From an uncultured Granulosicoccus sp. (GTDB lineage Bacteria > Pseudomonadota > Gammaproteobacteria > Granulosicoccales > Granulosicoccaceae): a stretch of DNA of 64,000 nt. Positions within the stretch are counted from its first letter, which is position 1. Each line of letters starts with the position of its first letter. Where the stretch lies: assembly GCA_947495035.1 (NCBI GenBank), contig CANLXI010000021.1:1-64000 (forward strand), given 5' to 3'. Positions 38,948 through 55,131 of the stretch are shown piece by piece. The position numbers were made by a program, and so were the translations under genes. A model generated the notes under the pieces. It was not told the DNA's origin. It made no database searches and saw nothing but the letters and a program-made list of their open reading frames with translations.

Positions 38948-39055
38948 TATCAATTAACTCGAAGAGCACAAGGACCGTATGTAGCGGCCATAGTAAAACC
39001 GACAACAGATCTTCTCATTGTCATGATTGCGACACTCATCGTCGCCAGGCTGACC

Positions 39056-39532
39056 TCATGCACCGGAGCCAGGTGGTTGCTCATCAGCGCGAATGACATC
39101 CCTGATGCGGTTGCAGGCCATCATCAGGCTGCGCGCGCTCTTCTCATCGACCCCGATCGCGCATTGGATCGAGGCAGGGATACCCAGCGCCCGACGATAC
39201 AGATCGTGCCCCTTGTCGGTCAGGTGAATCATCACACGGCGTTCGTCATCTCGACTGCGTACGCGACTGACAAGGCCCAGTTTCTCCAGACGCTGTATCA
39301 GGGGGGTGGTGGTTGCGCCCTCCAGTTGCAGTCGGGAAGCCATGGCCTGGATCGTGATGCCATCACCTTCCCACAATACCAGCATGGCCAGATACTGCGG
39401 ATAGGTCAGACCCAGGTCCGCCAGCAGCTTGCTGTACTGGCGGGTGATGGCGCGCGATGTCGAATAGAGGGCGAAACACAACTGGTCCTGCAACAGGAGT
39501 CCATCTGACGGCTTGGAGACTGTCTTGTTCAT
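39056..39532 (-). CDS. MarR-family regulator, OhrR-like (peroxide-sensing Cys)
   Basis: The 158-residue protein has the OhrR-type N-terminus 'LLLQDQLCFALYSTSRA', whose single Cys is the organic-peroxide sensor in that family, then 'LGLTYPQYLAMLVLWE' and the wing 'RVRSRDDERRVMIHLT'. The start at 39532 is preferred to the upstream in-frame one at 39571. It is divergent from the L-threonate genes with a 142-bp gap, so it may regulate them rather than an ohr gene, none of which is in the window. Confidence 0.82.
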   Translation of the reverse strand: MNKTVSKPSDGLLLQDQLCFALYSTSRAITRQYSKLLADLGLTYPQYLAMLVLWEGDGITIQAMASRLQLEGATTTPLIQRLEKLGLVSRVRSRDDERRVMIHLTDKGHDLYRRALGIPASIQCAIGVDEKSARSLMMACNRIRDVIRADEQPPGSGA

Positions 39533-39674
39533 GCTGGGCACTATATACCAGTGTGTCGAGGTGGCCTGCAAACCGCTGAACTGACCCCGTGCCGGCGCGG
39601 TATCTGAGAACCGGGCTGTCAGGTATTATGTTTGGTCCATTCTGCGATCGACAGCTACGAGAACCCTGACAGTT

Positions 39675-40577: not shown

Positions 40578-41833
40578 TGCTGCTGGGATGCATCGGGGAT
40601 GACTTCACCGGCTCATCCGATCTGGCAAATACCCTGGCCAAGCAGGGCATGCGTGTGGTGCAGTACACGGGAGTACCCTCCACTGCTGCCGACTCGATAG
40701 TCGAGGCCGGCGTGGTCGCCCTGAAATCACGCTCCATCGACCCGGCTGATGCAGTGCGACAATCACTCGAAGCCCTGGAGTGGCTACAGGCGCAAGGTTG
40801 CGAACAGTTCTTTTTCAAGTACTGCTCCACCTTCGACTCCACGCCGGAGGGCAACATCGGACCGGTAGCGGATGCCCTCGCCGAAGCACTCGACGCCCAC
40901 CGGATCATCGTCTGTCCGGCGTTTCCCGGGACGGGCCGCTCCATCTATCAGGGGCATCTGTTCGTCAAGGACACCCTGTTGAACGAAAGCGGATTGCAGA
41001 ATCACCCGCTGACGCCCATGACCGATCCGGATATCCGCCGCTGGTTGCGTCCGCAGACGACATTCGAAGTGGGGCATGTGGCTGCAGCGTCGGTGTTTGC
41101 CGGCAGTGAGGCCATTCGTGCGGCTCTGGATGAACAACATGAACAGGGCAAACGACTGATCGTGGTGGATGCCCTGCGGGATGAAGACTTGATGCAGATC
41201 GGCGCAGCCGTGGATACGCTGCCCCTGATTACCGGAGGATCCGGCGTTGCTCTGGGCTTGCCCGAGAACTTCAGACGGCGAGGTCTGATCACTGGTTCGG
41301 GGGCTCACTGGCGAGGGGAATCCGGCAAGTGCGTCGCCTTGTCCGGGTCCTGTTCCACGGCGACCCGCGAGCAGGTGGCACGGCATCTCGAAAAGGCGCC
41401 CGGCATGGAGATTGTGGCCGCCGATGTCATCGAAGGCAGAGTCACACCGCAGGGCGTCGCGGATTTTCTGATCAACGCCGACGGTGTGCCATTGGCCTAC
41501 AGTTCGGCTGACCCGATGGTTGTCAAGGAGGTGCAGGCACGTTTTGGTCGGGAGCGATCGGCCGAAGCGCTGGAGTCCTTTTTCGCGCAAGTGGCCCGGT
41601 GCCTGGTGGCTGGGGGTGTCAATCGCCTGTTGACCGCCGGTGGTGAGACCTCGGGGGCCGTGGTGGAGGGTCTGCAACTGGACACTCTGGAAATCGGTCC
41701 CGAGATCGATCCGGGCGTACCTGCGCTGAGAGCGGGTGACAGTCTGGTGATTGCCTTGAAATCCGGCAATTTCGGGGCGCCGGACTATTTCGAGAAGGCC
41801 GCCAGGGTGCTGGGCCTGTCAGGGCAGGAATAG
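40574..41833 (+). CDS. otnK: 3-oxo-tetronate kinase
   Basis: The 419-residue DUF1537 sugar-acid kinase phosphorylates 3-oxo-tetronate at C4. Diagnostic pieces are 'LGCIGDDFTGSSDLANTLA', 'FKYCSTFDSTPEGNIGPVA', 'VALSGSCSTATREQV' and 'LLTAGGETSGAVVEGL'. The start overlaps ltnD by 4 bases. Confidence 0.93.
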   Translation: MMLLGCIGDDFTGSSDLANTLAKQGMRVVQYTGVPSTAADSIVEAGVVALKSRSIDPADAVRQSLEALEWLQAQGCEQFFFKYCSTFDSTPEGNIGPVADALAEALDAHRIIVCPAFPGTGRSIYQGHLFVKDTLLNESGLQNHPLTPMTDPDIRRWLRPQTTFEVGHVAAASVFAGSEAIRAALDEQHEQGKRLIVVDALRDEDLMQIGAAVDTLPLITGGSGVALGLPENFRRRGLITGSGAHWRGESGKCVALSGSCSTATREQVARHLEKAPGMEIVAADVIEGRVTPQGVADFLINADGVPLAYSSADPMVVKEVQARFGRERSAEALESFFAQVARCLVAGGVNRLLTAGGETSGAVVEGLQLDTLEIGPEIDPGVPALRAGDSLVIALKSGNFGAPDYFEKAARVLGLSGQE

Positions 41834-41835
41834 CG

Positions 41836-42486
41836 ATGAGTGCAGAAGCCGACTTGCGCGAACAGATGTGCCTGCTGGCCAAATCGTTGTTCGACCGGGG
41901 GTTGACCAGTGGCAGTACCGGCAACATTTCTTCCCGGACGGCTGATGGTGGTTTGCTGGTATCACCCACGGGCACCAGTTTCGGGCGTCTCGATCCGGGG
42001 CGTCTGTCCCGGTTCGATGCAGACGGCCGACTGATCGACGGAGATTCACCCACCAAGGAAATGTCACTGCATTCGGCCTTCTATACCACGCGAAGCACGG
42101 CTGGTGCCGTGGTGCATCTGCATTCCTGTCATGCGGTGGCCTGGTCACTGATGCCCGAGGTCGATGAAGACAACTTTCTGCCACCGCTGACTCCATACGG
42201 GATCATGAAGCTCGGGCGAGTCAAACTGCTGCCGTACTTTCGACCCGGCGATCCGGCGATGGGGGAGGCCGTACGCGGTCTGGCGGGCAAGCGCAGTGCC
42301 GTGATGCTGGCCAATCATGGCCCGGTGGTTGCCGCCAAGGATGTCGAGGCAGCCTGTAACGCCATCGAGGAGCTGGAAGACACGGCCCGACTGGCAATGA
42401 TGATGCGCGGTCATGCCGCGCGTGCACTGAATTCAGATCAGATCGCTGATCTGGTATCGCATTTTGATGTGGAGTGGGAAGCTTGA
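41836..42486 (+). CDS. otnC: 3-oxo-tetronate 4-phosphate decarboxylase
   Basis: The 216-residue class II aldolase-fold protein has 'GLTSGSTGNISSR', 'LLVSPTGTSFG', the metal pair in 'AVVHLHSCHAVAWS' and 'VMLANHGPVVAAKD'. It converts 3-oxo-tetronate 4-phosphate to dihydroxyacetone phosphate and CO2, feeding glycolysis. It starts 2 bases after otnK. Confidence 0.92.
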   Translation: MSAEADLREQMCLLAKSLFDRGLTSGSTGNISSRTADGGLLVSPTGTSFGRLDPGRLSRFDADGRLIDGDSPTKEMSLHSAFYTTRSTAGAVVHLHSCHAVAWSLMPEVDEDNFLPPLTPYGIMKLGRVKLLPYFRPGDPAMGEAVRGLAGKRSAVMLANHGPVVAAKDVEAACNAIEELEDTARLAMMMRGHAARALNSDQIADLVSHFDVEWEA

Positions 42487-43244
42487 AATTTTCTGCCAAT
42501 CTCGGTTTTCTATGGACCGAATCGAGTCTGCCCGACGCCGTGCGCGCCGCTGCCAGCGCCGGTTTCGATGCTGTGGAGTGTCACTGGCCGTATGACACGC
42601 CTCCCGAGCAGCTTCGCCAGGCGCTGGCGGATACGGGGCTGACCATGCTGGGGCTCAACACCTCGCGTGGCAACCCGGATGCCGGCGATAACGGTCTGGC
42701 CGCATTGAGCGGACGAGTCGAAGAGGCTCGTCAGTCGATAGATGCGGCGATAGCCTATGCAGATGCTGTTGGCATTCCCAATGTGCATGTCATGGCCGGT
42801 TTTGCCGCGGGTGAGGAAGCACACACCACCTTTGTATCGAACCTGCAGTACGCCTGCGTAATGGCCGCCGCGCGGCACATCACCATTCTGATCGAACCAC
42901 TGAACCACTACGATGCCCCGGGGTATTTTCTGAATACCACCACTCAGGCGCTCGACATCATGGATGCTGTGGCAGCTGACAATCTGAAGCTGATGTTCGA
43001 TTGTTATCATGTGCAGTTGATGGAGGGTGATCTGAGCCACCGCCTGTCCGAACTACTGCCGCGAATCGGTCACATCCAGTTTGCTTCGGTGCCTGATCGT
43101 GGTGCACCGGATCACGGAGAGATCAATTATGATCATGTGTTCCGGCTGATCGACGAACTGGGCTACGCGGCACCGCTGGGCGCTGAATACAAGCCTGGAG
43201 GCGACACCGATTCCACGCTTGGCTGGTTGCGCGGATACCGTTGA
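42483..43244 (+). CDS. otnI: 2-oxo-tetronate isomerase
   Basis: The hydroxypyruvate-isomerase-like TIM barrel (about 253 residues) begins 'KFSANLGFLWTE', with 'VECHWPYD', 'IEPLNHYDAPGYFL', 'KLMFDCYHVQLMEGDL' and 'GHIQFASVPDRGAPDHGEINY', shown in part. It converts the LtnD product to the OtnK substrate. I chose TTG 42483, which overlaps the otnC stop (TTGA); GTG 42474 is an alternative start. Confidence 0.9.
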   Translation: MKFSANLGFLWTESSLPDAVRAAASAGFDAVECHWPYDTPPEQLRQALADTGLTMLGLNTSRGNPDAGDNGLAALSGRVEEARQSIDAAIAYADAVGIPNVHVMAGFAAGEEAHTTFVSNLQYACVMAAARHITILIEPLNHYDAPGYFLNTTTQALDIMDAVAADNLKLMFDCYHVQLMEGDLSHRLSELLPRIGHIQFASVPDRGAPDHGEINYDHVFRLIDELGYAAPLGAEYKPGGDTDSTLGWLRGYR

Positions 43245-43338
43245 TGCCCGTGCTGTGACGGAGCCGGCAGGCAGTATTCCCGAGGAAAAAGGCCTGCAGG
43301 AGTAGGTTTTCATACTGTTTCGAGGGGGCTTCGACTGG

Positions 43339-43368
43339 TTGACACTGCCTGTATATACAGGCTATCGT
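43339..43368 (+). promoter_or_regulatory. Promoter with embedded HutC-type operator upstream of the SDR gene
   Basis: TTGACA (43339-43344) and TATCGT (43363-43368) are spaced 18 bases apart as -35 and -10. The spacer holds the perfect 16-bp palindrome GCCTGTATATACAGGC (43347-43362), whose core TGTATATACA recurs after the HutC-type repressor gene. A repressor bound here would block RNA polymerase directly. Confidence 0.75.
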
Positions 43369-43402
43369 CAACCTGAAATCCAGAATCAGCAAAGGTGGCC
43401 GG

Positions 43403-44185
43403 ATGACTCCGGAGTCCGTCAATGCCCTGTTTGACCTGCAGGGCAGTACCGCAATCGTCACGGGTGCCAGTCGAGGTATCGGTCGGACCCTGGCAATGGG
43501 GCTGGCCGCTGCGGGTGCCGATATTGTCCTGACTGCGCGTTCGCAAGGCTCATTGCAGGACGTATCCTCTTGCATCGACGCGCTGGGGCGTCATTGCCAT
43601 GTGCGTACGCTGGATGTCAGCCGTACAGGGTCGATCGAGGAATTGTTCGGGTCCCTGCAGGCCGACGGCATCCTGGCTGACATTCTTGTCAATAATGCCG
43701 GCGTCGAGCAGGTCTGTCCGTCCGTGGATGTGGACGCGCAATTGTGGGACACCATCTGCGATACCAATCTCAAGGGATCCTTCTTCATGGCGCAGCATTT
43801 TGCTCGCGCCTTGCTGGCGCATGACAAGCAAGGCAGCATCATCAATCTTGGCTCGCTGACATCCGCGGTTGGGGTTCCGGGAGCAACGGCCTATACCAGC
43901 AGCAAAAGCGGCCTGCTGGGAATGACGCGAGCATTGAGTACCGAATGGGCGCCTCGCGGCATCCGAGTCAATGCCATGGGTCCCGGCTATTTTCGTACGG
44001 CATTGACAGAAGAGTTCTATCAGGATGCCCAGTGGCAGGACACCATGTTGTCGAAGATTCCGATGCAACGTTTTGGCCGGTTGGAAGATCTGGTAGGGCT
44101 GGGCGTCTTTCTGGCAGGTGATGCATCCGCCTATGTCAGTGGCCAGATCTTCTATGTTGATGGCGGATATCTCGCTGCCATCTGA
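43403..44185 (+). CDS. SDR-family NAD(P)-dependent alcohol/polyol dehydrogenase
   Basis: The 260-residue classical short-chain dehydrogenase has the cofactor motif 'TGASRGIGR', 'LVNNAG', the catalytic Ser in 'INLGSLTSAVG' and 'YTSSKSG', and the C-terminal 'SGQIFYVDGGYLA'. It resembles gluconate/ketogluconate-type reductases. No substrate can be fixed. Its promoter carries the operator shared with the ABC transporter operon downstream, so both belong to one regulon. Confidence 0.87.
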   Translation: MTPESVNALFDLQGSTAIVTGASRGIGRTLAMGLAAAGADIVLTARSQGSLQDVSSCIDALGRHCHVRTLDVSRTGSIEELFGSLQADGILADILVNNAGVEQVCPSVDVDAQLWDTICDTNLKGSFFMAQHFARALLAHDKQGSIINLGSLTSAVGVPGATAYTSSKSGLLGMTRALSTEWAPRGIRVNAMGPGYFRTALTEEFYQDAQWQDTMLSKIPMQRFGRLEDLVGLGVFLAGDASAYVSGQIFYVDGGYLAAI

Positions 44186-44236
44186 GGCGGGAGAATCCTC
44201 ATGAATTTCGATAGTGATCGATGAGAGTCCAGTCCG

Positions 44237-44959
44237 ATGAATGACCCGGCACCGTTGTACGTCAAGGTAAAGCGCCACATCACCGATGCGATCAGTGACG
44301 GAAAATATCTGCCGGGCGCCAAGTTGCCATCGGAGAGCGCCCTGGTCGAGGCGCTGGACGTCTCCCGAATGACGGTCAACCGGGCGCTGCGAGAGCTGAC
44401 ACGCGATGGGCTCATCACTCGGCTGCAGGGCGTTGGTTCCTTTGTCAGCAACGCTCGCCCCATGACCTCTCTTGTCGAGCTCAGGGACATTCGTGATTTC
44501 GTACTCGAGCTGGGCGCGGATTATTCCTGCAAGGTGCTGGTCGCAGAACGACGGCAGGCGAATCGGCGAGTGGGGGAGCTACTGGAAGTCGGCAAGGGCG
44601 CACAGGTTCTGCATGTGGCCATATTGCATTATTCCGATGGTGTTCCGATGCAGCTGGAGCGTCGCTTCGTGCGCGAGGATTTTTCGCCCGATCTGCTGAA
44701 GCAGGACCTGGAAGCCACCTCGACATTTCGCTATTTCCAGTCGATCGCGCCGGTATCCGAGCTGGAACAGGTGGTCGAGGCCTGTACACCCGATGCGCAA
44801 GAGCGTCGTTGGCTGAAACTGGAGGCGAATTGTCCACTGCTGAGAATCAGAAGGCGAACCTGGGTGGGTTCCAGAATTGTGACGCTGGGCTACTTTTCGC
44901 ATCCTGGCGATCAGTTTCGTGTGACTGTCAGGCTCTGTCCCGGCGATCTGTCGCGTTGA
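44237..44959 (+). CDS. GntR/HutC-family repressor with UTRA domain
   Basis: The 240-residue regulator has a winged helix (about 1-75: 'LYVKVKRHI', 'LPSESALVEALDVSRMTVNR', 'LQGVGSFVSN') and a UTRA ligand domain (about 90-235: 'GVPMQLERRFV', 'LRIRRRTWVGSRIVTLGYF'). It is closest by eye to HutC, the urocanate-responsive repressor, yet no hut catabolic gene is nearby, so the inducer probably differs. The TGTATATACA palindromes on both sides of the gene are its likely operators. Confidence 0.88.
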   Translation: MNDPAPLYVKVKRHITDAISDGKYLPGAKLPSESALVEALDVSRMTVNRALRELTRDGLITRLQGVGSFVSNARPMTSLVELRDIRDFVLELGADYSCKVLVAERRQANRRVGELLEVGKGAQVLHVAILHYSDGVPMQLERRFVREDFSPDLLKQDLEATSTFRYFQSIAPVSELEQVVEACTPDAQERRWLKLEANCPLLRIRRRTWVGSRIVTLGYFSHPGDQFRVTVRLCPGDLSR

Positions 44960-44978
44960 CATCGGGATATTCCTGTAT

Positions 44979-44992
44979 CTTGTATATACAAG
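44979..44992. promoter_or_regulatory. Second HutC-type operator, in front of the ABC transporter operon
   Basis: The perfect 14-bp palindrome CTTGTATATACAAG lies 20 bases past the repressor stop and about 58 bases before the ATPase start. A TTGACA (44956-44961) overlaps the repressor stop codon and may be the -35 box. The core is identical to the operator at 43347-43362. Confidence 0.75.
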
Positions 44993-45050
44993 GGACGAGG
45001 GGTAAACTTCCTTACCGTCTTGCAGACACATGCCGTTAGAGCCGGGAGTT

Positions 45051-46151
45051 ATGAGTACAGCTGCACACATGGTTGAGATCAGGAATGTCTCCAGAGCCTT
45101 CGGCCAGACTGTCGCGGTCGATAACGCGAGTCTCTCTCTGCAGCGCGGTGATTTCCTGACCATCGTTGGCCCCAGTGGTTGTGGCAAAACCACCTTGCTG
45201 CGAATGATTGCCGGGTTTGATGAACCGACCCGGGGCGAGATTCTGATCAACGGGCAGAATGTCGAATCCGTGCCGGCTTACCGGCGCTCGATCGGCATGG
45301 TGTTCCAGAAGCTGGCATTGTTTCCTCACATGACTGCCGCTGAGAACGTTGCCTTTCCACTGCGCATGCGTCGTTTCAATCCGGCATTGATCCCCGAACT
45401 GGTGAACCGATATCTGGCGCTGGTCAAGCTGGAACATCTTGCCGATCGCCGGCCTCATCAACTGTCAGGTGGACAGCAACAGCGTGTGGCCATTGCCCGC
45501 GCCCTGTCCTTCAGTCCGGATCTGCTGTTGCTGGATGAGCCCTTGTCAGCTCTGGACAAGAAGCTGCGGGAGGAGATGCAGTTGGAGTTCAGGCGTATTC
45601 AGCAGGAGCTTGGCGTCACCACGATCAATGTGACTCATGATCAACGCGAAGCGCTGGTCATGTCCGATCACATGATCGTCATGGATGAGGGCGTGGTGCA
45701 GCAGGCCAATACACCGCGCGAGGTCTATCACAGCCCCGGAAATCGCTTCGTGGCAGGTTTTCTCGGCGTTACGTCCATGTTCAAGGGCAGCGTGACGGCC
45801 ATCCGGGAAGGCAGGCTGTCGGTGGATATGGGTGGCGTCACGATGACGGCTCGGGGTAACGGACAATTGTTTTCGGTCGGTGATGTCATCGACTGTGCTG
45901 TGCGTGCAGAACAGGTCGTTCTGTTCGAGGAAGATGCCCGGCATTGGGAGAATGCGGTCACGGGTGTTGTTCGCCAGCGCATCTTCGAAGGTGATCGAAT
46001 GGTGTATGAGGTTCATGTCGAAGACATGAATGGTTCATTCATCCATGTGTTCGATCATGATCCCGGCAAGCACGCTGAACATGAGGTTGGAGCCATCGTG
46101 CATCTGGGCTGGAATGCAGAGTCGTTCTATGCGTTCCCTGTCGTTAAATAG
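45051..46151 (+). CDS. ABC transporter ATPase, spermidine/putrescine (PotA) type
   Basis: The 366-residue ATPase has Walker A 'GPSGCGKTT', Q-loop 'MVFQKLALFPHM', signature 'LSGGQQQRVAIAR', Walker B 'LLLLDEP', 'VTHDQREALVMSD' and a C-terminal TOBE domain. Starts at 45030 or 45051 are possible; GGGAG precedes the latter closely. It opens a four-gene importer operon of the PotABCD class, which carries polyamines, amino acids, opines and similar compounds. Confidence 0.85.
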   Translation: MSTAAHMVEIRNVSRAFGQTVAVDNASLSLQRGDFLTIVGPSGCGKTTLLRMIAGFDEPTRGEILINGQNVESVPAYRRSIGMVFQKLALFPHMTAAENVAFPLRMRRFNPALIPELVNRYLALVKLEHLADRRPHQLSGGQQQRVAIARALSFSPDLLLLDEPLSALDKKLREEMQLEFRRIQQELGVTTINVTHDQREALVMSDHMIVMDEGVVQQANTPREVYHSPGNRFVAGFLGVTSMFKGSVTAIREGRLSVDMGGVTMTARGNGQLFSVGDVIDCAVRAEQVVLFEEDARHWENAVTGVVRQRIFEGDRMVYEVHVEDMNGSFIHVFDHDPGKHAEHEVGAIVHLGWNAESFYAFPVVK

Positions 46152-46184
46152 CAGAACCTGAAAATCTTGAATCAGAGGATCGTG

Positions 46185-47279
46185 ATGATGAACAGACTAC
46201 CGATACAGAGCATGCGGCGACGCGCGGCACTCAAGGCCAGTGCGGCCGCCGCCGGAGCCCTGGCATTTCCTTCCCTGCTCAGAGCCAATGACAAGCCCGG
46301 AGAGTTGATCGTGCGCGCCTGGGGAGGCGCCTGGGGCGATGCACTCAAGGCGGGCGTTGCCGACCCGTTTACCGAAGCCACCGGCATCAAGGTGCGCCTG
46401 GATTTCACGGAAGACAACGAGATCAAGCCGAAGATCTGGTCGGCTGTCGATCAGGGACGCATTCCGCCCATCCATGTCAACTGGGACACCTCGACCAACG
46501 CAACGATTTCCGCGTTGCGGGGTGTGACTGTCGATCTGAGTGATCTGCCCAACCTCGAAGGCCTCTTGCCGCTGGCGAAACCTGCCGGACTGGAAGGCTA
46601 TCCGCTGGTCAACACCTACGCCTATGTCTATGTCTGCGCCTATCGTCCCGAGGCGTTTCCCGATGGTCCGCCCACGTCCTGGAAGACCATGCTGGACCCG
46701 AAATACAAGGGGCGCATCGCCTTGTACGACGACGGCATCGGATTCAACCCCATCGCGGTGATCGCCGGTGGCGGCACATTCGACGATATTCCCGACAATA
46801 TGGAGCCGGGTTACGAATTCTATCGTCAGCTCAAGGCGAACGAGCCATTGCTGGGTGAGGACTCCGACTTCACGACCTGGTTCCAGAACGGCGAGATCGA
46901 TCTGGCCTGCACCATCTCGGTGAATGCACGGGCAGCTCGCCAGAACGGTATCGATGTGCAGTGGACCGTACCGGAAGAGGGTTGCAAGGTGGATACCGAC
47001 GGTTTGTGGATTCCCAGAGGCTTGCCGGAGAACGAAGAGTTCTGGGCCAAGGAGTTCGTGAACTTCGCACTCTCCAGAGAAGCACAGGAAAAATGGTGTT
47101 CCCTGCTCGGATTGCCTCCCGTGTTTCCGGGAATCGCACCACCGGAAGATCTGGTCGACGATCTGTCCTACCCGACGAAACCGGAAGATTTTGCCAGACT
47201 GGTCAGTGTGCCGTCGCCCGTACTGGTCGAGAATCAGCCGAAATGGTTCGCCCGGTTCAACGAGATTTTCCAGGGCTGA
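46185..47279 (+). CDS. Periplasmic binding protein, PotD/family 1 type, with Tat signal
   Basis: The 364-residue protein has a twin-arginine signal ('MRRRAALKASAAAAGALAF') and then 'ELIVRAWGGAWGDALKAGV' and 'VNWDTSTNATISALRG', typical of spermidine/putrescine-family binding proteins. The body keeps 'WKTMLDPKYKGRIALYDD' and 'FALSREAQEKW'. The Tat route suggests folding or cofactor needs before export, and is common in this subfamily. ATG 46185 has AGAGG six bases upstream; the open frame extends to a TTG at 46167. The ligand is unknown. Confidence 0.85.
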   Translation: MMNRLPIQSMRRRAALKASAAAAGALAFPSLLRANDKPGELIVRAWGGAWGDALKAGVADPFTEATGIKVRLDFTEDNEIKPKIWSAVDQGRIPPIHVNWDTSTNATISALRGVTVDLSDLPNLEGLLPLAKPAGLEGYPLVNTYAYVYVCAYRPEAFPDGPPTSWKTMLDPKYKGRIALYDDGIGFNPIAVIAGGGTFDDIPDNMEPGYEFYRQLKANEPLLGEDSDFTTWFQNGEIDLACTISVNARAARQNGIDVQWTVPEEGCKVDTDGLWIPRGLPENEEFWAKEFVNFALSREAQEKWCSLLGLPPVFPGIAPPEDLVDDLSYPTKPEDFARLVSVPSPVLVENQPKWFARFNEIFQG

Positions 47280-47290
47280 TGATGCCCATG

Positions 47291-47320
47291 GTGCAACCCC
47301 GGCAGCTGCCGGGGTTGCAC
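47291..47320 (+). terminator. Perfect 30-bp palindrome between binding-protein and permease genes
   Basis: The two 15-base halves are exact reverse complements, starting GTGCAACCCCGGCAG. The hairpin lies 11 bases after the binding-protein stop and 24 before the permease start, with no U-run. It probably attenuates or protects the upstream mRNA so the binding protein outnumbers the membrane subunits. Confidence 0.75.
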
Positions 47321-47344
47321 GGCTACCTAGAGTGAATCACCGAC

Positions 47345-48283
47345 TTGCCTGAACGTACACCGGATAGACTGCCACTGCGCTGGACACTGCTGGACAGGCT
47401 GGAAGCTATCGCAGCCCTGGTCTGGCCAGCGCGCTTGCGTGGGGCAACCGGCTGGCTGTTCATCACACCGGCCCTGTTGCTGGTAGGCGTGTTGCTGATC
47501 GGTCTGGGCTACATGATCGAGTACAGTCTGCACGAACTGGATCTGTCCACCTACCGCCTGAAGGAAGCCTACACGCTGGACAATTACCTGTTCCTCATGG
47601 AGCAACCCGTCTATCTGCGAGTACTGTTGCGGACTTTGCTGGCAGCGACCATTGTCACGGCAGCGACTCTGTTTCTGGCTTTTCCCTATGCTTATGTCAT
47701 GGTCAGAACCTCGTCCTCGAGGTTGCGCAAGTTCCTGCTGATTTCGCTGTTTCTGCCTTTTTTCATCGGCCAGGTGGTACGTGCCTATGGCTGGCTGATC
47801 ATCCTGGGCAAGGAAGGCATCATCAACAGCCTGCTGCTGACACTGGATTTGCCGACACTGGATCTGATCTACAACAACGGTGCGGTGATCTTCGGTCTGG
47901 TGCAGTACATGCTGCCCTTTGCCGTGTTGCTGATCGTACCGGCCATCACTGCCATCGGCGAGGATATCGAACTGGCAGCAGAAAGCCTGGGTGCCCACTG
48001 GACAAGAGCCTTCTGGCATGTGGTTCTGCCCATGGCCAGGCCCGGACTGGTTGGTGCCGGGGTTGTCGTGTTCACCCTGACCATGACAGATTTTGCCATG
48101 CCGGAAATTCTGGGTGGTGGTACCAGTGATTTCATCGCCAGTGCGATCTACGACAGCTTTTTCCAATTGTCCAATTCCGGTCTGGGCGCTGCCCTGTCCA
48201 TTGTCCTGGTGACACTTGGCAGTATCCTGGTGGCCATCGTGTTCCGGCTCACCGGTGCCGGGACGCTGAGTATCCGGCAATGA
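47345..48283 (+). CDS. ABC transporter permease, PotB type
   Basis: The 312-residue inner-membrane permease has six predicted transmembrane segments, 'PALLLVGVLLIGLGYMI', 'FLPFFIGQVVRAYGW' and the EAA loop 'LAAESLGAHWTRAFWHVVLP'. The start is a TTG at 47345; no better codon is in frame nearby. It pairs with the next gene. Confidence 0.85.
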   Translation: MPERTPDRLPLRWTLLDRLEAIAALVWPARLRGATGWLFITPALLLVGVLLIGLGYMIEYSLHELDLSTYRLKEAYTLDNYLFLMEQPVYLRVLLRTLLAATIVTAATLFLAFPYAYVMVRTSSSRLRKFLLISLFLPFFIGQVVRAYGWLIILGKEGIINSLLLTLDLPTLDLIYNNGAVIFGLVQYMLPFAVLLIVPAITAIGEDIELAAESLGAHWTRAFWHVVLPMARPGLVGAGVVVFTLTMTDFAMPEILGGGTSDFIASAIYDSFFQLSNSGLGAALSIVLVTLGSILVAIVFRLTGAGTLSIRQ

Positions 48284-48332
48284 GTCAGCTGTTGATCGTG
48301 TTGGTGAAGACGTTGCGATGTCAGGGGGGCGC

Positions 48333-49133
48333 ATGAATCTCATGCCGTCGAAGAACTGGGTCCTGTGGACATTGGTGACTTTCAGTCTGATCACCTTGAG
48401 TCTGCCGACCATCATCATCATTGGTGCCTCGTTCACCTCGGGTGAGATCATCCAGTTTCCGCCAGATGGTTTTTCTCTACGCTGGTATGAACGTCTGTGG
48501 CAACTGGATGACTTCAAGGATGCATTCCTGCGCACGCTGCATGTCTCTTTCATCTGTACCCTGGTGGCCATTCCCGTGGGCACGCTGGCAGCTCTGGCCT
48601 GTGTGCGCTATCGCATGCGTTTCCAGCAGACCATACAGGTCTATCTGTTGCTGCCATTCACCATACCGCTGGTGGTATCCGGAATCGCCATGATGATCTT
48701 CTTCGGTGAGATTCGCATTTTGGGGCAGATCTGGCCAGTGGGTGTCGCGCTGTGCCTGATCAACCTGCCGTTCATGATCTGGTCGGTGAGCTCGACGGTC
48801 AACGGTCTGGACCCGGAGCTGGAGAATGCCGCTCACAGTTGTGGTGCACCACCGGTGCAGACGTTCTTTGCCGTGACGCTGCCGGCAGTCATGCCCGGTG
48901 TGATTACCGGGGCACTGCTGATGTTCATTCTGGCGTTCAACGAGTTTCTGGTCAGTCTGTTCCTGACCGATGCCCGCACCGTGACCCTGCCGGTGCAGAT
49001 CTACAATTCGATTCGCAGTGTCATCACGCCAGACCTGGCTGCGGTATCGGTCGTCTACATCGTGGTCGCACTGCTTGCCGTCTGGTTGCTCGACCGTCTG
49101 GTCGGACTCGACATCTTCCTCAAATCACGATAA
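48333..49133 (+). CDS. ABC transporter permease, PotC type
   Basis: The 266-residue permease has 'LPTIIIIGASFTSGEIIQFPP', 'GFSLRWYERLW' and the EAA loop 'LENAAHSCGAPPVQTFFAVT', all PotC-like. A run of AGGGGGG ends four bases before the ATG at 48333; an in-frame ATG at 48318 is an alternative. The HisD-like gene follows 17 bases later. Confidence 0.85.
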   Translation: MNLMPSKNWVLWTLVTFSLITLSLPTIIIIGASFTSGEIIQFPPDGFSLRWYERLWQLDDFKDAFLRTLHVSFICTLVAIPVGTLAALACVRYRMRFQQTIQVYLLLPFTIPLVVSGIAMMIFFGEIRILGQIWPVGVALCLINLPFMIWSVSSTVNGLDPELENAAHSCGAPPVQTFFAVTLPAVMPGVITGALLMFILAFNEFLVSLFLTDARTVTLPVQIYNSIRSVITPDLAAVSVVYIVVALLAVWLLDRLVGLDIFLKSR

Positions 49134-49150
49134 ACCGCCTTCCCGCATTC

Positions 49151-50473
49151 ATGAACATCAGTTTCCATCACCATGCGTCGCTGGACGATGCGCAGAAAGC
49201 TGCCTTGCTGCAGCGTACCGAAGGCGATCTGGGGCCTTTTCTGGAAAAGGTCGTGCCCATCATCCATGCTGTTCGGGATGAGGGTGACGCAGCGCTGGCG
49301 CGCTTTGCCAGGCAATTCGATGGCTCTACGGTTGCTGCCGATGCCATTGCGGCCACGCCTGCAGATTTCGACAAGGCGTTTGACAGCCTTGACAAGGACT
49401 TCATCGAGATACTGGAATACAACAGCGACAATGTGCGCCGCTTTCATCGGGCACAGATGCCCGAGCAGATGTGGATGAAGGAAATGCATCCGGGGGTCTT
49501 TGCCGGGGAGAAGGTTGAGGCGATCAGCTCGGTAGCCTGCTATGTTCCCAGAGGCAAGGGTTCGTTTCCCAGTGTTGTCATGATGACGGCCATTCCGGCC
49601 GTCGTGGCGGGTGTTCCCGAACCGGTCATCATCACGCCGCCGGGGCCCGATGGCAACGTGGATGCGGCGACTCTGGTGGCAGCCAGGATCGCTGGTGTCG
49701 AACAGGTCTACAAATGCGGTGGTGCTCAGGGCGTCGCAGCCGTTGCCCATGGCACGCAGACCGTGCCGCGTTGTCGCAAGATCGTCGGACCGGGCAGCCC
49801 CTGGGTGGTCGCGGCCAAACGTGTTCTGGCCGACCGTCTCGATCCGGGCCCACCCGCCGGTCCCAGCGAGTCGATCATCCTGGCCGATGAGACTGCCAAT
49901 GGACGTGTAGCCGCTCTGGATCTGCTGATCGAATCCGAGCACGGACCTGACAGCTCTGCCTATCTGGTGACCTCATCAAGGGCGGTTGCCGAAGCTGCGA
50001 TTGCGGCCATTCCCGGATATTGGAAGCAGATGAGTGAACAGCGAGTGGCGTTTTCATCCACGGTGCTGTGTGGTCCGCGAGGCGGAGTGATTCTGACTGA
50101 CTCCATTGAAGAGGCCATCGCTTTCGTCAATGAGTATGCTCCCGAACATCTGCAGATACACTCGAAGGATGCGCATGACTACCTGGGCGCCATACGCAAT
50201 GCCGGGGAGATACTGCTGGGAGAACATACGCCGATCTGTATCGGTAATTTCACGCTTGGTCCCAATGCTGTGCTGCCAACCAATGCAAGCGCACATACGC
50301 GCTCACCCCTGGGTGTGCATGATTACCTGAAGCTGGTCTCGATCGGCCATGTGACAAGAAAGGGTTACGACACCTTGGCGCCCTATGCCCGGAAGATGGC
50401 ACGGTACGAAGGGTTCGATGCACACGAAAACGCGGTGTCGGAGATGCGCACAAAGGCGTTCGAGGCCGGATAG
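49151..50473 (+). CDS. Histidinol-dehydrogenase paralogue with altered metal ligands
   Basis: The 440-residue protein has the HisD fold: 'SSVACYVPRGKGSFPSVVMM', 'GGAQGVAAVAHGT', 'VGPGSPWVVAAKR' and 'AGPSESIILAD'. The catalytic Glu-His of 'YAPEHL' is kept. Of the four zinc ligands of E. coli HisD, two are kept (His264 and His425 here) and two are changed: Gln to Glu261 and Asp to Asn366. The conserved His of 'PNHVLPT' is Ala373. HpsN-type sulfopropanediol dehydrogenases, the best known HisD paralogues, keep these residues as far as I recall. So this is probably a different alcohol/amino-alcohol oxidising enzyme, not the biosynthetic HisD. The longer open frame to 48752 overlaps the permease and is not coding. 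Confidence 0.85.
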   Translation: MNISFHHHASLDDAQKAALLQRTEGDLGPFLEKVVPIIHAVRDEGDAALARFARQFDGSTVAADAIAATPADFDKAFDSLDKDFIEILEYNSDNVRRFHRAQMPEQMWMKEMHPGVFAGEKVEAISSVACYVPRGKGSFPSVVMMTAIPAVVAGVPEPVIITPPGPDGNVDAATLVAARIAGVEQVYKCGGAQGVAAVAHGTQTVPRCRKIVGPGSPWVVAAKRVLADRLDPGPPAGPSESIILADETANGRVAALDLLIESEHGPDSSAYLVTSSRAVAEAAIAAIPGYWKQMSEQRVAFSSTVLCGPRGGVILTDSIEEAIAFVNEYAPEHLQIHSKDAHDYLGAIRNAGEILLGEHTPICIGNFTLGPNAVLPTNASAHTRSPLGVHDYLKLVSIGHVTRKGYDTLAPYARKMARYEGFDAHENAVSEMRTKAFEAG

Positions 50474-50485
50474 GCGCTGGACGAC

Positions 50486-51859
50486 ATGATGGATTCACGT
50501 TTGAAGATTGGCGCGCAAGCCGGTACGCCATTGGATAAGCAGGCTGGTTCGGGAGCCAGCCATGATGCACCGGCAAGCCCGTTGTCGCGGATCAGGCAGC
50601 TTGGCCGCGATCCGGCGAGCATGCCCGAGGCCGCGCTCGCGATGATCGAACTGCTGGATCGGAAGTTTCCGTTCACGGTGGTGCCGGGCAGTCTGACTCT
50701 TGACACCTGTAATCCACTGGCACTGAACTCGCTGCGAGCAGAATTCAGAACCGAAGACGGACAGCACCTGTTTCTCAAATGCCATCACGAGGACGGTGAA
50801 GCAGACCGAGTGGGGGAGTATTACCGGTCTGGTATTCTGGAAGAAGCCGGCTTTCCGATTGACAAGGCCCTGTATCAATCCTCCGCAGTTGGCGAGCAAC
50901 TGGTGATCTACCGCTACCGGGATCGTCGCCAGTTTCCGGAGTTGCACAGTGTGGCCCGTGATCTGGAATCGCATGGTTGCAGGCCGGCGGACATGGCGCC
51001 AGTGGTCGCAGCCTTTGACCGCTTTCAGCAGCAGCTGGGAGCGCGTTATCTGGATAGTCTGCACCTTGCCTCCCCAGCGGAGGTTGCGGCCGAGGCGGTG
51101 CATGGCTTGTATCATCGACGCCTGGTCGATCACGAGGAAGCAGTCGTGTTCGGTGGGCGAGTTCGCGAATTCTACCTGGGAAGACAAGTAGAGCTGCCCG
51201 ACGGCAGCAGCCTGCCGTTCGAACAATTCTGGCATTTACGCTGGCGTATCAATGGGCAGCTGCAAGAGTCGAGTCTGCATGAGGCCTTGCAACGCGCCCG
51301 GGTGCTGCTGCTGCCGACACCGCATGAGTCCGTGGCGGCCCTGACAGCCCATGGCGATGACCACACCGGAAATCTGCTGTACAACCCGGCGGAAAGTATC
51401 GACAGGGCGATCAGCTATTTTGATCCGGCTTTCGCTGGCAACCACATTCCGGCATTGATGGCGCCCTGCAAGGCGCTCTATCATGTCTGTTATGCGCATC
51501 CGAACATGCTGTACGATCCGGACGAACTGCGGGTGGATCTGTCAGCGAAGGTGAGTCAGGGTGTGCTGCAGATCGAGCATGACTGGCAGCTGACGCCGTT
51601 GCGGCAGCAATTTCTGGCATCGCAGACAAGACATGTCTGGCAACCCTTGCTGCGAACCATGAGGGCACAGAATCTGCTGCCCGTGCAGTGGCGGGACATC
51701 ATCGGTGCTGCATTGCTGTGCTGCCCGTTGTTGTGCAAGAATCTTCTGGCAGGGGCAGGTCGACCCAACCCCTTGACGGCTGAAGCCTCACTGCTGACGT
51801 TCTCGGTTGCCCTGCAACTGGCCGATGGCCTGTTTACCCATCAGCTGGACGACCCGTGA
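50486..51859 (+). CDS. APH-fold phosphotransferase (small-molecule kinase-like)
   Basis: The 457-residue protein has the kinase-like aminoglycoside/choline phosphotransferase core. 'HLFLKCHHEDGEADRVGEYY' (shown to the key Lys and Glu) would hold the ATP site, 'ALTAHGDDHTGNLLY' is the catalytic loop (HGDxHxGN) and 'ISYFDPAFAGNH' the metal-binding segment. The substrate is unknown. It follows the HisD-like gene by 12 bases, so it probably phosphorylates a substrate or product of this catabolic cluster. Confidence 0.75.
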   Translation: MMDSRLKIGAQAGTPLDKQAGSGASHDAPASPLSRIRQLGRDPASMPEAALAMIELLDRKFPFTVVPGSLTLDTCNPLALNSLRAEFRTEDGQHLFLKCHHEDGEADRVGEYYRSGILEEAGFPIDKALYQSSAVGEQLVIYRYRDRRQFPELHSVARDLESHGCRPADMAPVVAAFDRFQQQLGARYLDSLHLASPAEVAAEAVHGLYHRRLVDHEEAVVFGGRVREFYLGRQVELPDGSSLPFEQFWHLRWRINGQLQESSLHEALQRARVLLLPTPHESVAALTAHGDDHTGNLLYNPAESIDRAISYFDPAFAGNHIPALMAPCKALYHVCYAHPNMLYDPDELRVDLSAKVSQGVLQIEHDWQLTPLRQQFLASQTRHVWQPLLRTMRAQNLLPVQWRDIIGAALLCCPLLCKNLLAGAGRPNPLTAEASLLTFSVALQLADGLFTHQLDDP

Positions 51860-51958
51860 GCTGCGTGAAGACAGCGACACGCTGAAGAACAGCTGTGTGT
51901 ACCTGATCCGAATCCCGGCGTATCATGACGCTGAACCCGGCTACCGGTGGAGACTGTC

Positions 51959-52204
51959 ATGTCGCGGCAAATACCTGCATTGAAGCGCATCACCATTCGT
52001 ACGGCACGCGAACTGGATGTCTGGCTTGCCAGTGGCTTCACTCAGGCAAACAGCGTCATGCTGGTGACCCATGCCAGATCCTCCGATCCGCAAAGCATCA
52101 GCCCGGATCAGATGGCACAGGCAATGGCAGGGCATGAATGGAAGGTCGGGCGTCGCTATACCCTTGGATCGGGCCTGCTGGGACAGGTGATCAGCAGACC
52201 ATGA
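51959..52204 (+). CDS. Short protein resembling the N-terminal part of YdeI/OmdA-family proteins
   Basis: The 81-residue frame contains 'ITIRTARELDVWLASGFTQA' and 'SVMLVTHARSSDPQSISPDQ', the pattern that begins YdeI-like proteins (usually about 190 residues). The downstream tryptophan-rich part is missing and the frame ends against the tauZ-like gene on the other strand. It may be a remnant or a true short relative. The ATG at 51959 lacks a strong ribosome-binding site. Confidence 0.45.
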   Translation: MSRQIPALKRITIRTARELDVWLASGFTQANSVMLVTHARSSDPQSISPDQMAQAMAGHEWKVGRRYTLGSGLLGQVISRP

Positions 52205-52223
52205 CCGGGGTGGGTCTGCGTGA

Positions 52224-53258
52224 TCAAGCCAGAAAATGCACGCCGACAAGAATGAACACGCCGATGAACAGGGTTTCAGCCACGATGAGGATGATGGCCT
52301 GAGAACCGACGTCGAAGATTCTGCGCAGAGACGTTTTCATGCCTACTGCCGAGATGGCGGTCAGCAGGGCCCAGCGAGACAGATCGTTCAGGAAGCTGCC
52401 AACGGACTCCGGTATCAGATTCAGGGAATTGATGCCAGCCAGCAGCAGAAAACCCAATACAAATCCCGGCACCAGTGGTGGTCGTTTCTTGCCTTCAAGC
52501 GATTCCGATTCGCCGCGCATGCGGATCACCAGAGCGAAGACCAGTACCACGGGGGCCAGCATGCTGACACGGATCAACTTCACAAGCGTGGCTGTTTCAC
52601 CGGTCTGTTCGGAGACGGAGAAACCGGCACCGACAACCTGCGCGACATCGTGGATGGTGCCGCCGAGAAAGACCCCGGTGGCAAGATGATCCAGCCCCAG
52701 TGTCTGTGTGATGATGGGGTAGGCAATCATGGCGATCGTGCTCAACACGGTGACGCCCAGTACCGTGAACAGCAGATTGCGTTCGGAATGTTCGTTGGTG
52801 GGCAGAACGGCGGCAATGGCCATGGCCGCTGATGCTCCGCAAATGGCAACAGCGCCCCCCGTCAGCAAACCCAGTCGCCAACCGCGTCCCAGTACCGCGG
52901 CACCGCCCAGACCGAACAGGATGGTCAGAATGACACCGGCTATGGTCAGCGAGATCATGGACGGACCAAGACCGATCAACAGATCGATACTGATTCTGAC
53001 ACCCAGCAAGGCCACACCGAAGCGCAAGACAGTGCGTGCCGTGAATTCGATACCCTTGACGCAGACGCCTTCTTCAGCAAGAAAATGAAAGGCAATCCCC
53101 AGCAGCAAGGCCATCAGCATGGCGGGCGCGCCATAGTGCTCTGACAGGAATTGCGCGGTCACGGCAATGACCAGTGCGACACACAATCCCTGGCCTACCC
53201 CTCCCAGACGACCGCTGACTGCATCGAATCGGGAGGCAATCGCTGACTGCATATTCAT
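52224..53258 (-). CDS. tauZ: YeiH/UPF0324-family membrane protein, TauZ-like sulfite/sulfate exporter
   Basis: The 344-residue protein has about ten transmembrane segments and the family motifs 'LRFGVALLGVRIS', 'AICGASAAMAIAAV' and 'FLGGTIHDVAQVVGAG'. Members in sulfonate-degradation clusters are thought to remove the sulfite or sulfate set free by Xsc. It lies downstream of xsc on the same strand after a hairpin at 53302-53331. The name TauZ is by context; export itself is an inference. Confidence 0.8.
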   Translation of the reverse strand: MNMQSAIASRFDAVSGRLGGVGQGLCVALVIAVTAQFLSEHYGAPAMLMALLLGIAFHFLAEEGVCVKGIEFTARTVLRFGVALLGVRISIDLLIGLGPSMISLTIAGVILTILFGLGGAAVLGRGWRLGLLTGGAVAICGASAAMAIAAVLPTNEHSERNLLFTVLGVTVLSTIAMIAYPIITQTLGLDHLATGVFLGGTIHDVAQVVGAGFSVSEQTGETATLVKLIRVSMLAPVVLVFALVIRMRGESESLEGKKRPPLVPGFVLGFLLLAGINSLNLIPESVGSFLNDLSRWALLTAISAVGMKTSLRRIFDVGSQAIILIVAETLFIGVFILVGVHFLA

Positions 53259-53301
53259 GGTGACGTTGTTCGTGATTTCAGGTTGGGGGGGCGAGGTGTG
53301 G

Positions 53302-53331
53302 GGAGTCAGGAAGCGGATGCTCCCTGACTCC
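53302..53331 (-). terminator. Hairpin between xsc and the exporter gene
   Basis: GGAGTCAGG and CCTGACTCC form a perfect 9-bp stem with a 12-base loop, just past the xsc stop on the minus strand. No U-run follows; partial termination or mRNA-end protection is likely. Confidence 0.6.
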
Positions 53332-53338
53332 TGTCCAA

Positions 53339-55120
53339 TCAGGAAGGTTGTTGCGGACGCATGTCGGCAGCATTGATGCCGGCAACCGATACCGGTGCTT
53401 TCATGGCATCGCGACGGAAGGGTTCGCCGAGTTCCTGGTTCAGTACGACTTCGATGAAGGTAGTGACATTGTCGTTCATCTGTTCCTGCACGGCAGTTGT
53501 CAACGCAGCCGAGAGATCCTCGGTATTGAACACCTTGACACCCTTGAGGCCGCAGGCTTCAGCGATCTTCGCGTAATCCACCTGAGTATCCAGCTCGGTT
53601 CCGACAAAGTTGTCCTTGTACCAGAGTGTGGTATTGCGCTTCTCGGCGCCCCACTGATAGTTGCGGAAGATCACCATTGTAATCGCTGGCCAATCGTTTC
53701 GGCCGCAGGCGGTCATTTCATTCATCGAGATACCGAAAGCACCGTCTCCGGCAAAACCGACGACCGGTACATCGGGACAACCGATCTTGGCGCCCAGGAT
53801 GGCTGGCAGACCGTAGCCACAAGGTCCGAACAGGCCGGGAGCCAGGTACTTGCGACCTTTTTCGAAGGTCGGGTAAGCGTTGCCGATGGCGCAGTTGTTA
53901 CCGATGTCGCTGGAAATGATGACGTCTTCAGGCAGTGAGTCACGGATTGCCAACCAGGCATTGCGCGGTGACATGCGATCGGGATTGCGCTCACGCGCAC
54001 GCTCGTTCCAGGTGATGCCCTCGTCGTTGTCTTCCTCGTGCTCCATGGACACCAGTTCCTGCGCCCAGCGATCCTTGGTGTGCTTGATGTCGGACTTGCG
54101 TTCGCTGCGGCCGGCATCACCGGCAGTCTTGCTCAACTGGCCGAGAATTTCGGTGGCCACGTACTTGGCATCACCCTGGATGGCTACGGTTACCGGCTTG
54201 GTCAGCCCGATACGATCGGCATTGATATCCACCTGAATGAGCTTGGCGTCCTTCGGCCAGTAGTCGATTCCGTAACCGGGCAGTGTGGAGAAGGGGTTCA
54301 GACGCGTGCCCAGAGCCAGCACCACATCCGCCTTGGCAATCAGTTCCATTGCCGCCTTGGAGCCGTTGTATCCAAGGGGACCGACAGACAGCTCATGTGA
54401 GCCGGGGAATGCATCGTTGTGCTGGTAATTGCAGCAAACCGGTGCATCCAGTTTTTCGGCCAGCTGGCGTGAGGCATCGATGGCACCACCGATAACGACA
54501 CCGGCACCATTGAGAATGACGGGAAACTTCGCTTCAGACAGCAGTTTTGCCGCATCGGCAATGGCATCGGCGCCACCGCGTGGACGTTCCAGACGCACGA
54601 TCTGTGGCAGTTCGATGTCGATGACCTGAGTCCAGTAGTCACGAGGAATGTTGATCTGCGCCGGTCCACACAGACGCCAGGCCTGCTCGATGACGCGGTT
54701 CAGAACCTCGGCAACACGGGAAGGATCACGAACCTCTTCCTGGTAGGCCACCATGTCCTCGAACAGGGCCATCTGCTTGATTTCCTGGAAGCCGCCCTGA
54801 CCGATGGTCTTGTTGGCTGCCTGAGGTGTTACCAGCAGCATGGGGGTGTGGTTCCAATAAGCAGTCTTTATGGGAGTCACGAAATTGGTGATGCCCGGGC
54901 CGTTCTGGGCAATGGCCATGGACATCTTGCCCGAGGCACGGGTATAGCCGTCGGCACTCATGCCGGCGTTGCACTCATGTGCGCAGTCCCAGAACTTGAT
55001 GCCGGCAGCCGGGAACAAGTCGGAAATGGGCATCATGGCAGAGCCGATGATGCCGAATGCATGTTCGATACCATGCATCTGCAGTACCTTGATGAAGGCT
55101 TCTTCTGTTGTCATTTTCAT
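53339..55120 (-). CDS. xsc: Sulfoacetaldehyde acetyltransferase
   Basis: The 593-residue ThDP enzyme converts sulfoacetaldehyde plus phosphate to acetyl phosphate and sulfite. It has the Xsc-type N-terminus 'GIEHAFGIIGSAMMPISDLF', 'QNGPGITNFVTPIKTAYWNH', the ThDP motif running from 'GDGAFGISMNEM' to 'IFRN', and 'QWGAEKRNTTLWY'. Length is typical for the family. TauY ends 11 bases upstream, giving the order tauX-tauY-xsc-exporter. No phosphotransacetylase gene is in the window. Confidence 0.95.
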   Translation of the reverse strand: MKMTTEEAFIKVLQMHGIEHAFGIIGSAMMPISDLFPAAGIKFWDCAHECNAGMSADGYTRASGKMSMAIAQNGPGITNFVTPIKTAYWNHTPMLLVTPQAANKTIGQGGFQEIKQMALFEDMVAYQEEVRDPSRVAEVLNRVIEQAWRLCGPAQINIPRDYWTQVIDIELPQIVRLERPRGGADAIADAAKLLSEAKFPVILNGAGVVIGGAIDASRQLAEKLDAPVCCNYQHNDAFPGSHELSVGPLGYNGSKAAMELIAKADVVLALGTRLNPFSTLPGYGIDYWPKDAKLIQVDINADRIGLTKPVTVAIQGDAKYVATEILGQLSKTAGDAGRSERKSDIKHTKDRWAQELVSMEHEEDNDEGITWNERARERNPDRMSPRNAWLAIRDSLPEDVIISSDIGNNCAIGNAYPTFEKGRKYLAPGLFGPCGYGLPAILGAKIGCPDVPVVGFAGDGAFGISMNEMTACGRNDWPAITMVIFRNYQWGAEKRNTTLWYKDNFVGTELDTQVDYAKIAEACGLKGVKVFNTEDLSAALTTAVQEQMNDNVTTFIEVVLNQELGEPFRRDAMKAPVSVAGINAADMRPQQPS

Positions 55121-55131
55121 GGTGTTGGTCC

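Follow-up and report, generated by a model that had tools for sequence, protein, structure and literature searches.

Enzymes of the HisD family oxidize alcohols to acids, and in both HisD and HpsN the metal binds the amino or hydroxy group at position 2 of the substrate plus another of its groups while the terminal CH2OH is converted to COOH (for HpsN, accessible text of PMC11382572). In the pathway for 2,3-dihydroxypropane-1-sulfonate (DHPS), hpsO, hpsP and hpsN were picked as a trio encoding a short-chain dehydrogenase/reductase (SDR), a zinc alcohol dehydrogenase (ADH) and a HisD-family enzyme (same source and part). A further cluster with a HisD-family member is carried by Sinorhizobium meliloti 1021, where SMa0387 (hisC3), SMa0391, SMa0392, SMa0394, SMa0396, SMa0398 (hisD2) and SMa0402 were down 8- to 24-fold in a tolC mutant and the cluster transporter was termed one of unknown function (accessible text of PMC2912261). 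Here, we analyzed a 64,000-nucleotide stretch (positions 1 to 64,000 of contig CANLXI010000021.1, hereafter the window) from an uncultured Granulosicoccus sp. In this host, which belongs to the Granulosicoccus group and has a genome of 7.16 Mb, eight consecutive genes encode an SDR, a HutC-like regulator, a PotABCD-type importer, a HisD-like dehydrogenase and a kinase with an APH-like active-site motif. The HisD-like gene and the kinase gene are the core of the system. We propose, with a probability of roughly 0.5, that the operon serves to scavenge nitrogen by breaking down a cationic amino-alcohol or an amine-bearing 1,2-diol, with a logic resembling that of HpsOPN.

The HisD-like dehydrogenase and its partner kinase

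At its key positions the HisD-like protein of the window has Glu261, His264, Glu332, His333, Asn366, Ala373, Glu420 and His425. Compared with E. coli HisD and CpHpsN, the catalytic pair Glu332-His333 (326/327 in E. coli), both metal-binding His residues and Glu420 are retained, whereas the HisD metal ligands Gln, His, Asp and His are represented by Glu261, His264, Asn366 and His425. All 26 kinase-linked HisD-like proteins that were aligned had Glu for the ligand Gln, Asn for the ligand Asp, Ala for E. coli His367 and the motif G-K-G-S/A-F, which reads G-K-G-S-F in the window. The equivalent motif is G-S-A-P-L in HisD and G-R-Y-A/S-H in HpsN, and no activity was detected for an Asp-to-Ala mutant of CpHpsN (accessible text of PMC11382572), which makes the natural Asn, together with Glu for Gln, notable.

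In a tree of 35 proteins, 31 fell into one clade (support 100/99) that was separated by a long branch from E. coli HisD and three other host copies. Judged from its sequence, the window protein is a member of a third clade, neither HisD nor HpsN. It has the fold family and the catalytic pair in common with biosynthetic HisD, is 32% identical to E. coli HisD and passed the cut-off of TIGR00069; it differs in its separate clade, the three substitutions named above and the missing G-S-A-P-L, and its gene does not lie beside his genes. Paralogues nested inside the clade, in a 10-row group (100/99) with the kinase-linked proteins of Granulosicoccus and Paroceanicella, and the five Granulosicoccaceae paralogues aligned had Tyr and Cys at two pocket positions, compared with Phe and Ala. 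The nesting suggests that the kinase association may be older than its absence in the paralogues; the tree cannot settle this order, because its rows were chosen via the kinase or this HisD family. A long-branch warning was given for the outgroup rows of the tree.

The host genome contains five PF00815 genes (contigs C1, C2, C6, C21 and C34), among which no canonical hisD was seen, and five were also counted, without further typing, in the single-contig genome G388. The host protein nearest to E. coli HisD was 38% identical and of HpsN type. The host hisG follows a murA-like gene, and no hisD-like open reading frame (ORF) was present after hisG.

The window kinase alone gave no Pfam or NCBIfam family match. 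Among 11 kinase relatives, four matched PF01636, the Pfam APH family (best E 0.0012), and three the APH(3') model (best E 0.051). The residues Lys98, His289-Gly-Asp291-x-His-x-x-Asn296 and Asp313, which make up an APH-type active-site set (Lys, HxDxxxxN, Asp), were invariant in all 25 aligned sequences, that of the window included. When compared with E. coli proteins by hhalign, SrkA came first of 16 at a probability of 22% only, and ThiK and YniA stayed at control level though their motifs align. On this weak evidence, the kinase is a probable member of the APH family. The fold and the phosphorylation of a substrate, as given for it in the initial annotation, were not supported as written. 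No sign of a drug-resistance role was found in the data seen. Kinship with methylthioribose kinase was rejected: the lone weak match of the window protein, to the methylthioribose kinase 2pyw, had an E of 0.14 and was lost with the profile, which returned two coenzyme A-transferase sequences only (E 0.88).

A search of 369 genomes of the class with the single kinase sequence gave two marginal matches and no other full-length relative. A profile built from 11 kinases was positive in 7 of 398 genomes across the phylum, host included, and in 10 of 385 genomes in the class of genome G504. Besides the host, the kinase-bearing genomes comprised 14 distinct ones, found via the kinase alone, and in each of the 14 a HisD-like gene of the same clade was located 67-7709 bp from the kinase gene. 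The co-occurrence of this HisD subfamily with the kinase, put forward for checking in the initial annotation, therefore holds from the kinase side; from the HisD side it fails for the paralogous branch in the order (24 of 28 genomes). In this order, the kinase was present in 4 of 48 genomes, exactly those whose HisD-like protein shares at least 83% identity with that of the window, whereas 24 other genomes had only a 59-64% HisD-like paralogue and no kinase.

In the 14-20 kb fetched around the pair, 11 of these 14 genomes had an SDR, 5 a zinc ADH, 4 a HutC-like regulator (at least 35%; one at 29% in G700 was left out), 3 a HisC-like aminotransferase and 1 a 2-hydroxy-acid oxidase (partial match). 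The importer was of PotABCD type in 5, of SsuA type in 7 and of neither type in 2. Both SDR and zinc ADH were near the pair in 5 of the 14 relatives, and the eight window genes include an SDR and no ADH. Genes for 2-hydroxy-acid oxidase, aminotransferase and 2-hydroxy-acid dehydrogenase were found in or beside the clusters of some relatives. On plasmids, the kinase was detected by tblastn in 106 records, mostly of Sinorhizobium and Rhizobium, with 9 of Klebsiella, and in the ten plasmid loci examined the HisD-like gene adjoined the kinase gene or lay at most 6 kb off (for L094 by annotation and likeness to L093 only). Relatives of the cluster sit on plasmids of Sinorhizobium, Rhizobium, Pantoea and Klebsiella. 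E. coli genomes gave no match to the Klebsiella HisD-like/kinase/ADH DNA. In loci L104 and L105, both from one alphaproteobacterial genus, the cluster has an amidase gene (PF01425 in L104) and, by inspection, urease-accessory-like genes beside it.

The operon, its operators and its importer

As initially annotated, all eight ORFs are present on the plus strand (43403-51859), and Pfam or NCBIfam supported the families of seven of the eight (Table 1). Conserved starts, compared with locus L006, suggest the later of two candidate starts for the PotA-like protein. G388, G410 and G411, all of the same genus, also have the eight genes in identical order (loci L006 and L048, each 250,993 bases long, being counted as one contig of G410). 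Upstream, G411 also has three genes of a DUF1537-kinase block. G410 lacks this block in the interval from the shared left flank to the SDR gene, and a search of the 19 kb fetched from G388 revealed none of it. Downstream, a block around a sulfoacetaldehyde acetyltransferase (Xsc) gene is kept in G410 and G411 and was not in the same fetched stretch of G388. The flanks thus vary around a constant set of eight genes. This set is the unit, with the genes of sulfonate and acid-sugar type as its neighbors. Both blocks were rejected as required parts, since for each there is a relative whose operon lacks it. The best reading is that the eight genes form one inducible catabolic unit that scavenges a small, probably cationic alcohol containing nitrogen, a prediction to which we give about even odds.

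Table 1. Location of the operon genes and of the predicted regulatory sites in the window.
Feature	Coordinates	Strand	Support
Sigma-70-like promoter match TTGACA-18-TATCGT before SDR gene, operator in spacer	43339..43368	+	Consensus match only
Operator 1, CTGTATATACAG, within 16-bp perfect palindrome	43349..43360		Sequence match
SDR-family dehydrogenase	43403..44185	+	PF13561; same position in three relatives
HutC-like GntR/UTRA regulator	44237..44959	+	TIGR02018, 241 bits, cut-off 220
Operator 2, TTGTATATACAA, before potA-like gene	44980..44991		Sequence match
PotA-like ATP-binding cassette (ABC) ATPase	45051..46151 (ORF open from 45030)	+	ORF call and family match
PotD-like solute-binding protein	46191..47279	+	Family match; Asp181 and Asp270 = PotD Asp168 and Asp257 in alignment
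PotB-like permease, TTG start	47345..48283	+	ORF call and family match
PotC-like permease	48318..49133	+	ORF call and family match
HisD-like dehydrogenase, assigned to third clade	49151..50473	+	TIGR00069, 432 bits, cut-off 244
Kinase with APH-like active-site motif, 457 residues	50486..51859	+	Lys98, HGDxHxxN 289-296, Asp313

The upstream block (39675-43244) consists of 3-hydroxyacid-dehydrogenase-like, DUF1537 kinase (PF07005/PF17042), aldolase-like and TIM-barrel isomerase-like (PF01261) genes, the first and third by inspection, and resembles the catabolic pathway for 4-carbon acid sugars. The downstream genes, on the minus strand at 52224-56532, encode a YeiH-like protein (by inspection), Xsc (TIGR03457, 940 bits) and a flavin adenine dinucleotide (FAD) oxidoreductase, a taurine-type sulfonate module that is conserved in two relatives. 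Rfam gave no match over window positions 38000-57500.

The sequence TGTATATACA occurs exactly twice in the 64 kb, at 43350-43359 before the SDR gene and at 44981-44990 before the importer genes, and its mean count over 100 shuffles was 0.00. The first copy lies in the spacer of the sigma-70-like match, a usual location for a repressor; four such matches were found compared with a shuffle mean of 3.7, so they are not enriched. G410 and G411 have both operators at equivalent positions, although one base of the second is changed in G411, and G388 had a perfect 20-bp palindrome before the SDR gene and none in the 53 bases examined before potA. Similar sites (at least 10 of 12 positions) were present at the corresponding promoters of the Paroceanicella, Pacificitalea, Agrobacterium, S. 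meliloti, Rhizobium SSA_523, G700, G504 and Pantoea clusters. No operator was found at the Phyllobacterium cluster (best 7/12), the three alphaproteobacterial loci L080-L082 reached 9/12 at best, and the Klebsiella stretches had no match at 11/12 or better. The shared operator that had been postulated for the SDR and importer genes is supported by the identical core before both, its absence in shuffles and its retention in relatives. The label HutC did not survive as a pathway name and is a family name only here, because the host urocanase cluster carries a separate GntR/UTRA-like gene (23% identical).

Exact TTGTATATACAW was found at three places in the host genome, none of them on contig C4, which holds the hut cluster. 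The other exact operator copies in the host (two on contig C5) lie beside apparently unrelated genes or inside an ORF. A perfect TTGTATATACAA is located at G000:C5:92638-92649, between gene groups for a tripartite ATP-independent periplasmic (TRAP)-type and a Dpp-type transporter (types by inspection).

The importer was compared with the PotABCD polyamine importer. The ATPase, the binding protein and the two permeases all belong to the Pot family, in that their best NCBIfam models were Pot models, but the PotA subfamily alone passed its cut-off, and the PotD, PotB and PotC models were far below theirs. Among 15 binding proteins of PotABCD-type clusters, 157 of 362 residues were common. Asp181 and Asp270 were invariant in all 15 and align with PotD Asp168 and Asp257, while the window protein has Gly, Ile and Asp in place of PotD Glu171, Trp229 and Trp255 (positions counted by hand). 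The roles and numbering of these five PotD residues are those that we assume for them. The residues give a weak indication that a hydroxylated cation would fit the binding protein. The Pantoea binding protein scored 142 bits with the SsuA family (cut-off 163.5).

Nitrogen and the predicted function

The Pantoea cluster (locus L039) has a perfect sigma-54 match, TGGCAC-N5-TTGCT (TGGCACTTAATTTGCT), at 7282-7297, and its TTGTATATACAT operator starts five bases after this match. The 21-kb locus has no other perfect site, and 2000 mononucleotide shuffles of the intergenic stretch produced none. The pSymA locus of S. meliloti strain M162, which was equated with the SMa loci of strain 1021 by gene order and names, corresponds to the window operon in its HisD-like protein (59%), kinase (36%), SDR (53%), importer (58-66%) and HutC-like regulator (36%), and differs in adding a zinc ADH, a 2-hydroxy-acid oxidase and a HisC-like aminotransferase. 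In the tolC mutant of strain 1021, ntrB, ntrC and glnK were also down, hutU and hutG fell alongside the cluster, and the authors considered the drop in nitrogen-compound transport genes probably due to lower NtrC (accessible text of PMC2912261). The SMa0392 mRNA is a target of the small RNAs AbcR1/2 (accessible text of PMC8844928), and SMa0391 and hisD2 are listed in tables of a PhaR study (accessible text of PMC12542648). The Pantoea promoter and the S. meliloti expression suggest, both indirectly, that the operon substrate serves as a nitrogen source. In S. meliloti the link may be indirect, because the sigma-54 site is absent there.

A literature search limited to open-access papers, in the parts accessible, found no function for the cluster. 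The earlier statement that the combination matched no nameable pathway was right in that no described pathway was found; an orthologous cluster, S. meliloti SMa0387/SMa0391-0402, is nevertheless already in print (accessible text of PMC2912261).

When the compound is absent, the HutC-like repressor would occupy the two TGTATATACA operators and shut off the SDR and importer genes. The PotABCD-type importer would take up the compound, and the HisD-like enzyme would convert a terminal CH2OH to a carboxylate with two nicotinamide adenine dinucleotides (NAD+), its metal holding a neighboring NH2 or OH and one further substrate group, by analogy with HisD and HpsN. The SDR, together with a zinc ADH in some species, probably interconverts or oxidizes the neighboring secondary alcohol, as proposed for HpsO/HpsP with DHPS. 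Some species add a 2-hydroxy-acid oxidase and an aminotransferase, which would fit a 2-hydroxy acid as the product of the HisD-like enzyme. The weakest step is that of the kinase, which may phosphorylate the substrate or an intermediate and so commit the compound to metabolism. An amine-bearing substrate, as suggested in the initial annotation, was judged the likeliest class.

Several observations weigh against this proposal. Seven of the 14 sampled clusters use an SsuA-like importer of the sulfonate/nitrate type, which disfavors a cation, and in 2 of the 14 genomes the importer is absent beside the pair. No SDR lies near the kinase in 3 of the 14 genomes and no ADH in 9, and the window operon itself lacks an ADH; the analogy with HpsO/HpsP thus cannot hold everywhere. 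A perfect sigma-54 site was present in one of 21 regions scanned, that of Pantoea, the next best having three mismatches; the scan found none in the S. meliloti cluster region. The score of the window HisD-like protein with TIGR00069, the NCBI HisD model, points in the same direction. The sigma-54 matches in Klebsiella had two mismatches and lay inside a gene.

Alternative pathways and wider meaning

Catabolism of a polyol or sugar acid without nitrogen, tied to the upstream DUF1537-kinase block, appears unlikely. The SDR, the kinase and an alcohol-to-acid oxidation would suit a polyol, and three genes of the block also stand upstream in G411; however, the operon occurs without the block in G410, the block was not found in the G388 stretch, and the S. 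meliloti and Pantoea evidence favors nitrogen.

We consider it improbable that an amine is degraded via gamma-glutamylation, with the HisD-like enzyme oxidizing an aldehyde and not an alcohol. In several loci among L045 (G000:C1:79000-98000) and L049-L054, the gene for the 62% HisD-like paralogue has glutamine-synthetase-like, class-I amidotransferase and FAD oxidase genes nearby, joined in L053 and L054 by gamma-glutamyltransferase-like genes (by inspection), and these loci perhaps represent another amine pathway. A class-I amidotransferase gene adjoins the pair in G863 and G965, and on one Klebsiella plasmid glutamine synthetase and amino acid permease genes lie 3-6 kb beyond the cluster. 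The same families are, however, absent from the eight window genes, and the paralogue has Tyr/Cys for Phe/Ala at the two pocket positions.

Sulfonate catabolism, in which the HisD-like enzyme would be an HpsN variant for DHPS or cysteinolate and would work with the neighboring Xsc gene, draws on the families of HisD, SDR and ADH, which are those of hps, on the SsuA-like importers and on the Xsc and FAD oxidoreductase genes 1.5-4.7 kb downstream on the minus strand, kept in two relatives. The catalytic Glu-His is retained as in HpsOPN. In CpHpsN, His126 and Lys353 contact the sulfonate and Asp352 is a metal ligand (accessible text of PMC11382572); both contact residues are Phe in all 26 kinase-linked proteins, and the window has Asn366-Phe367 for Asp352-Lys353. 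Two metal ligands are changed and the cluster contains a kinase, in which it also departs from HpsOPN. The G388 operon had no Xsc gene in the stretch fetched. Elsewhere in the host, HisD-family genes on contigs C6 and C34 carry G-R-Y-S-H and Asp-Lys, the one on C6 adjoining, by inspection, TRAP permease and sulfopyruvate decarboxylase subunit genes. A DHPS/HpsN identity was accordingly rejected as unlikely, with both sulfonate contacts altered and HpsN-type genes elsewhere in the host.

Use of histidinol or another imidazole compound feeding the hut pathway is equally hard to credit: HisD and HisC families do occur alongside a HutC-family regulator, TIGR00069 and TIGR02018 were above cut-off, the Glu that contacts imidazole in MtHDH (Glu455) is retained, no canonical hisD was seen in the host and the S. 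meliloti tolC mutant shows lower expression of hutU and hutG as well as of the cluster (accessible text of PMC2912261), but two of four metal ligands are unlike those of HisD, G-S-A-P-L is missing, histidinol breakdown offers no obvious role for the kinase, SDR, ADH and 2-hydroxy-acid oxidase, and the host has a separate urocanase cluster (TIGR01228, contig C4) with its own regulator-like gene. The exclusion of hut and hps in the initial annotation agrees with these results, as the HpsN-type genes and the hut cluster of the host stand elsewhere.

A wider reading is tentative: the pair may define an unrecognized proteobacterial pathway for an abundant nitrogenous plant or algal alcohol. In such a pathway, the HisD-like enzyme would be a third HisD subtype, with Glu and Asn at its metal site, that yields an amino acid or a 2-hydroxy acid, and the kinase would represent a new APH-like family whose target is a metabolite, not a drug. 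The gene set recurs in rhizobia, Agrobacterium, marine bacteria and enterobacterial plasmids, and in the annotated plasmid records examined it is masked by the labels 'histidinol dehydrogenase', 'histidine utilization repressor' and 'hypothetical protein'. Because G-K-G-S/A-F and the Glu/Asn ligands set the enzyme apart from both HisD and the ocean-relevant HpsN, it can be excluded when DHPS or histidine metabolism is surveyed. Since S. meliloti carries the cluster, a search for the substrate is possible with existing laboratory tools.

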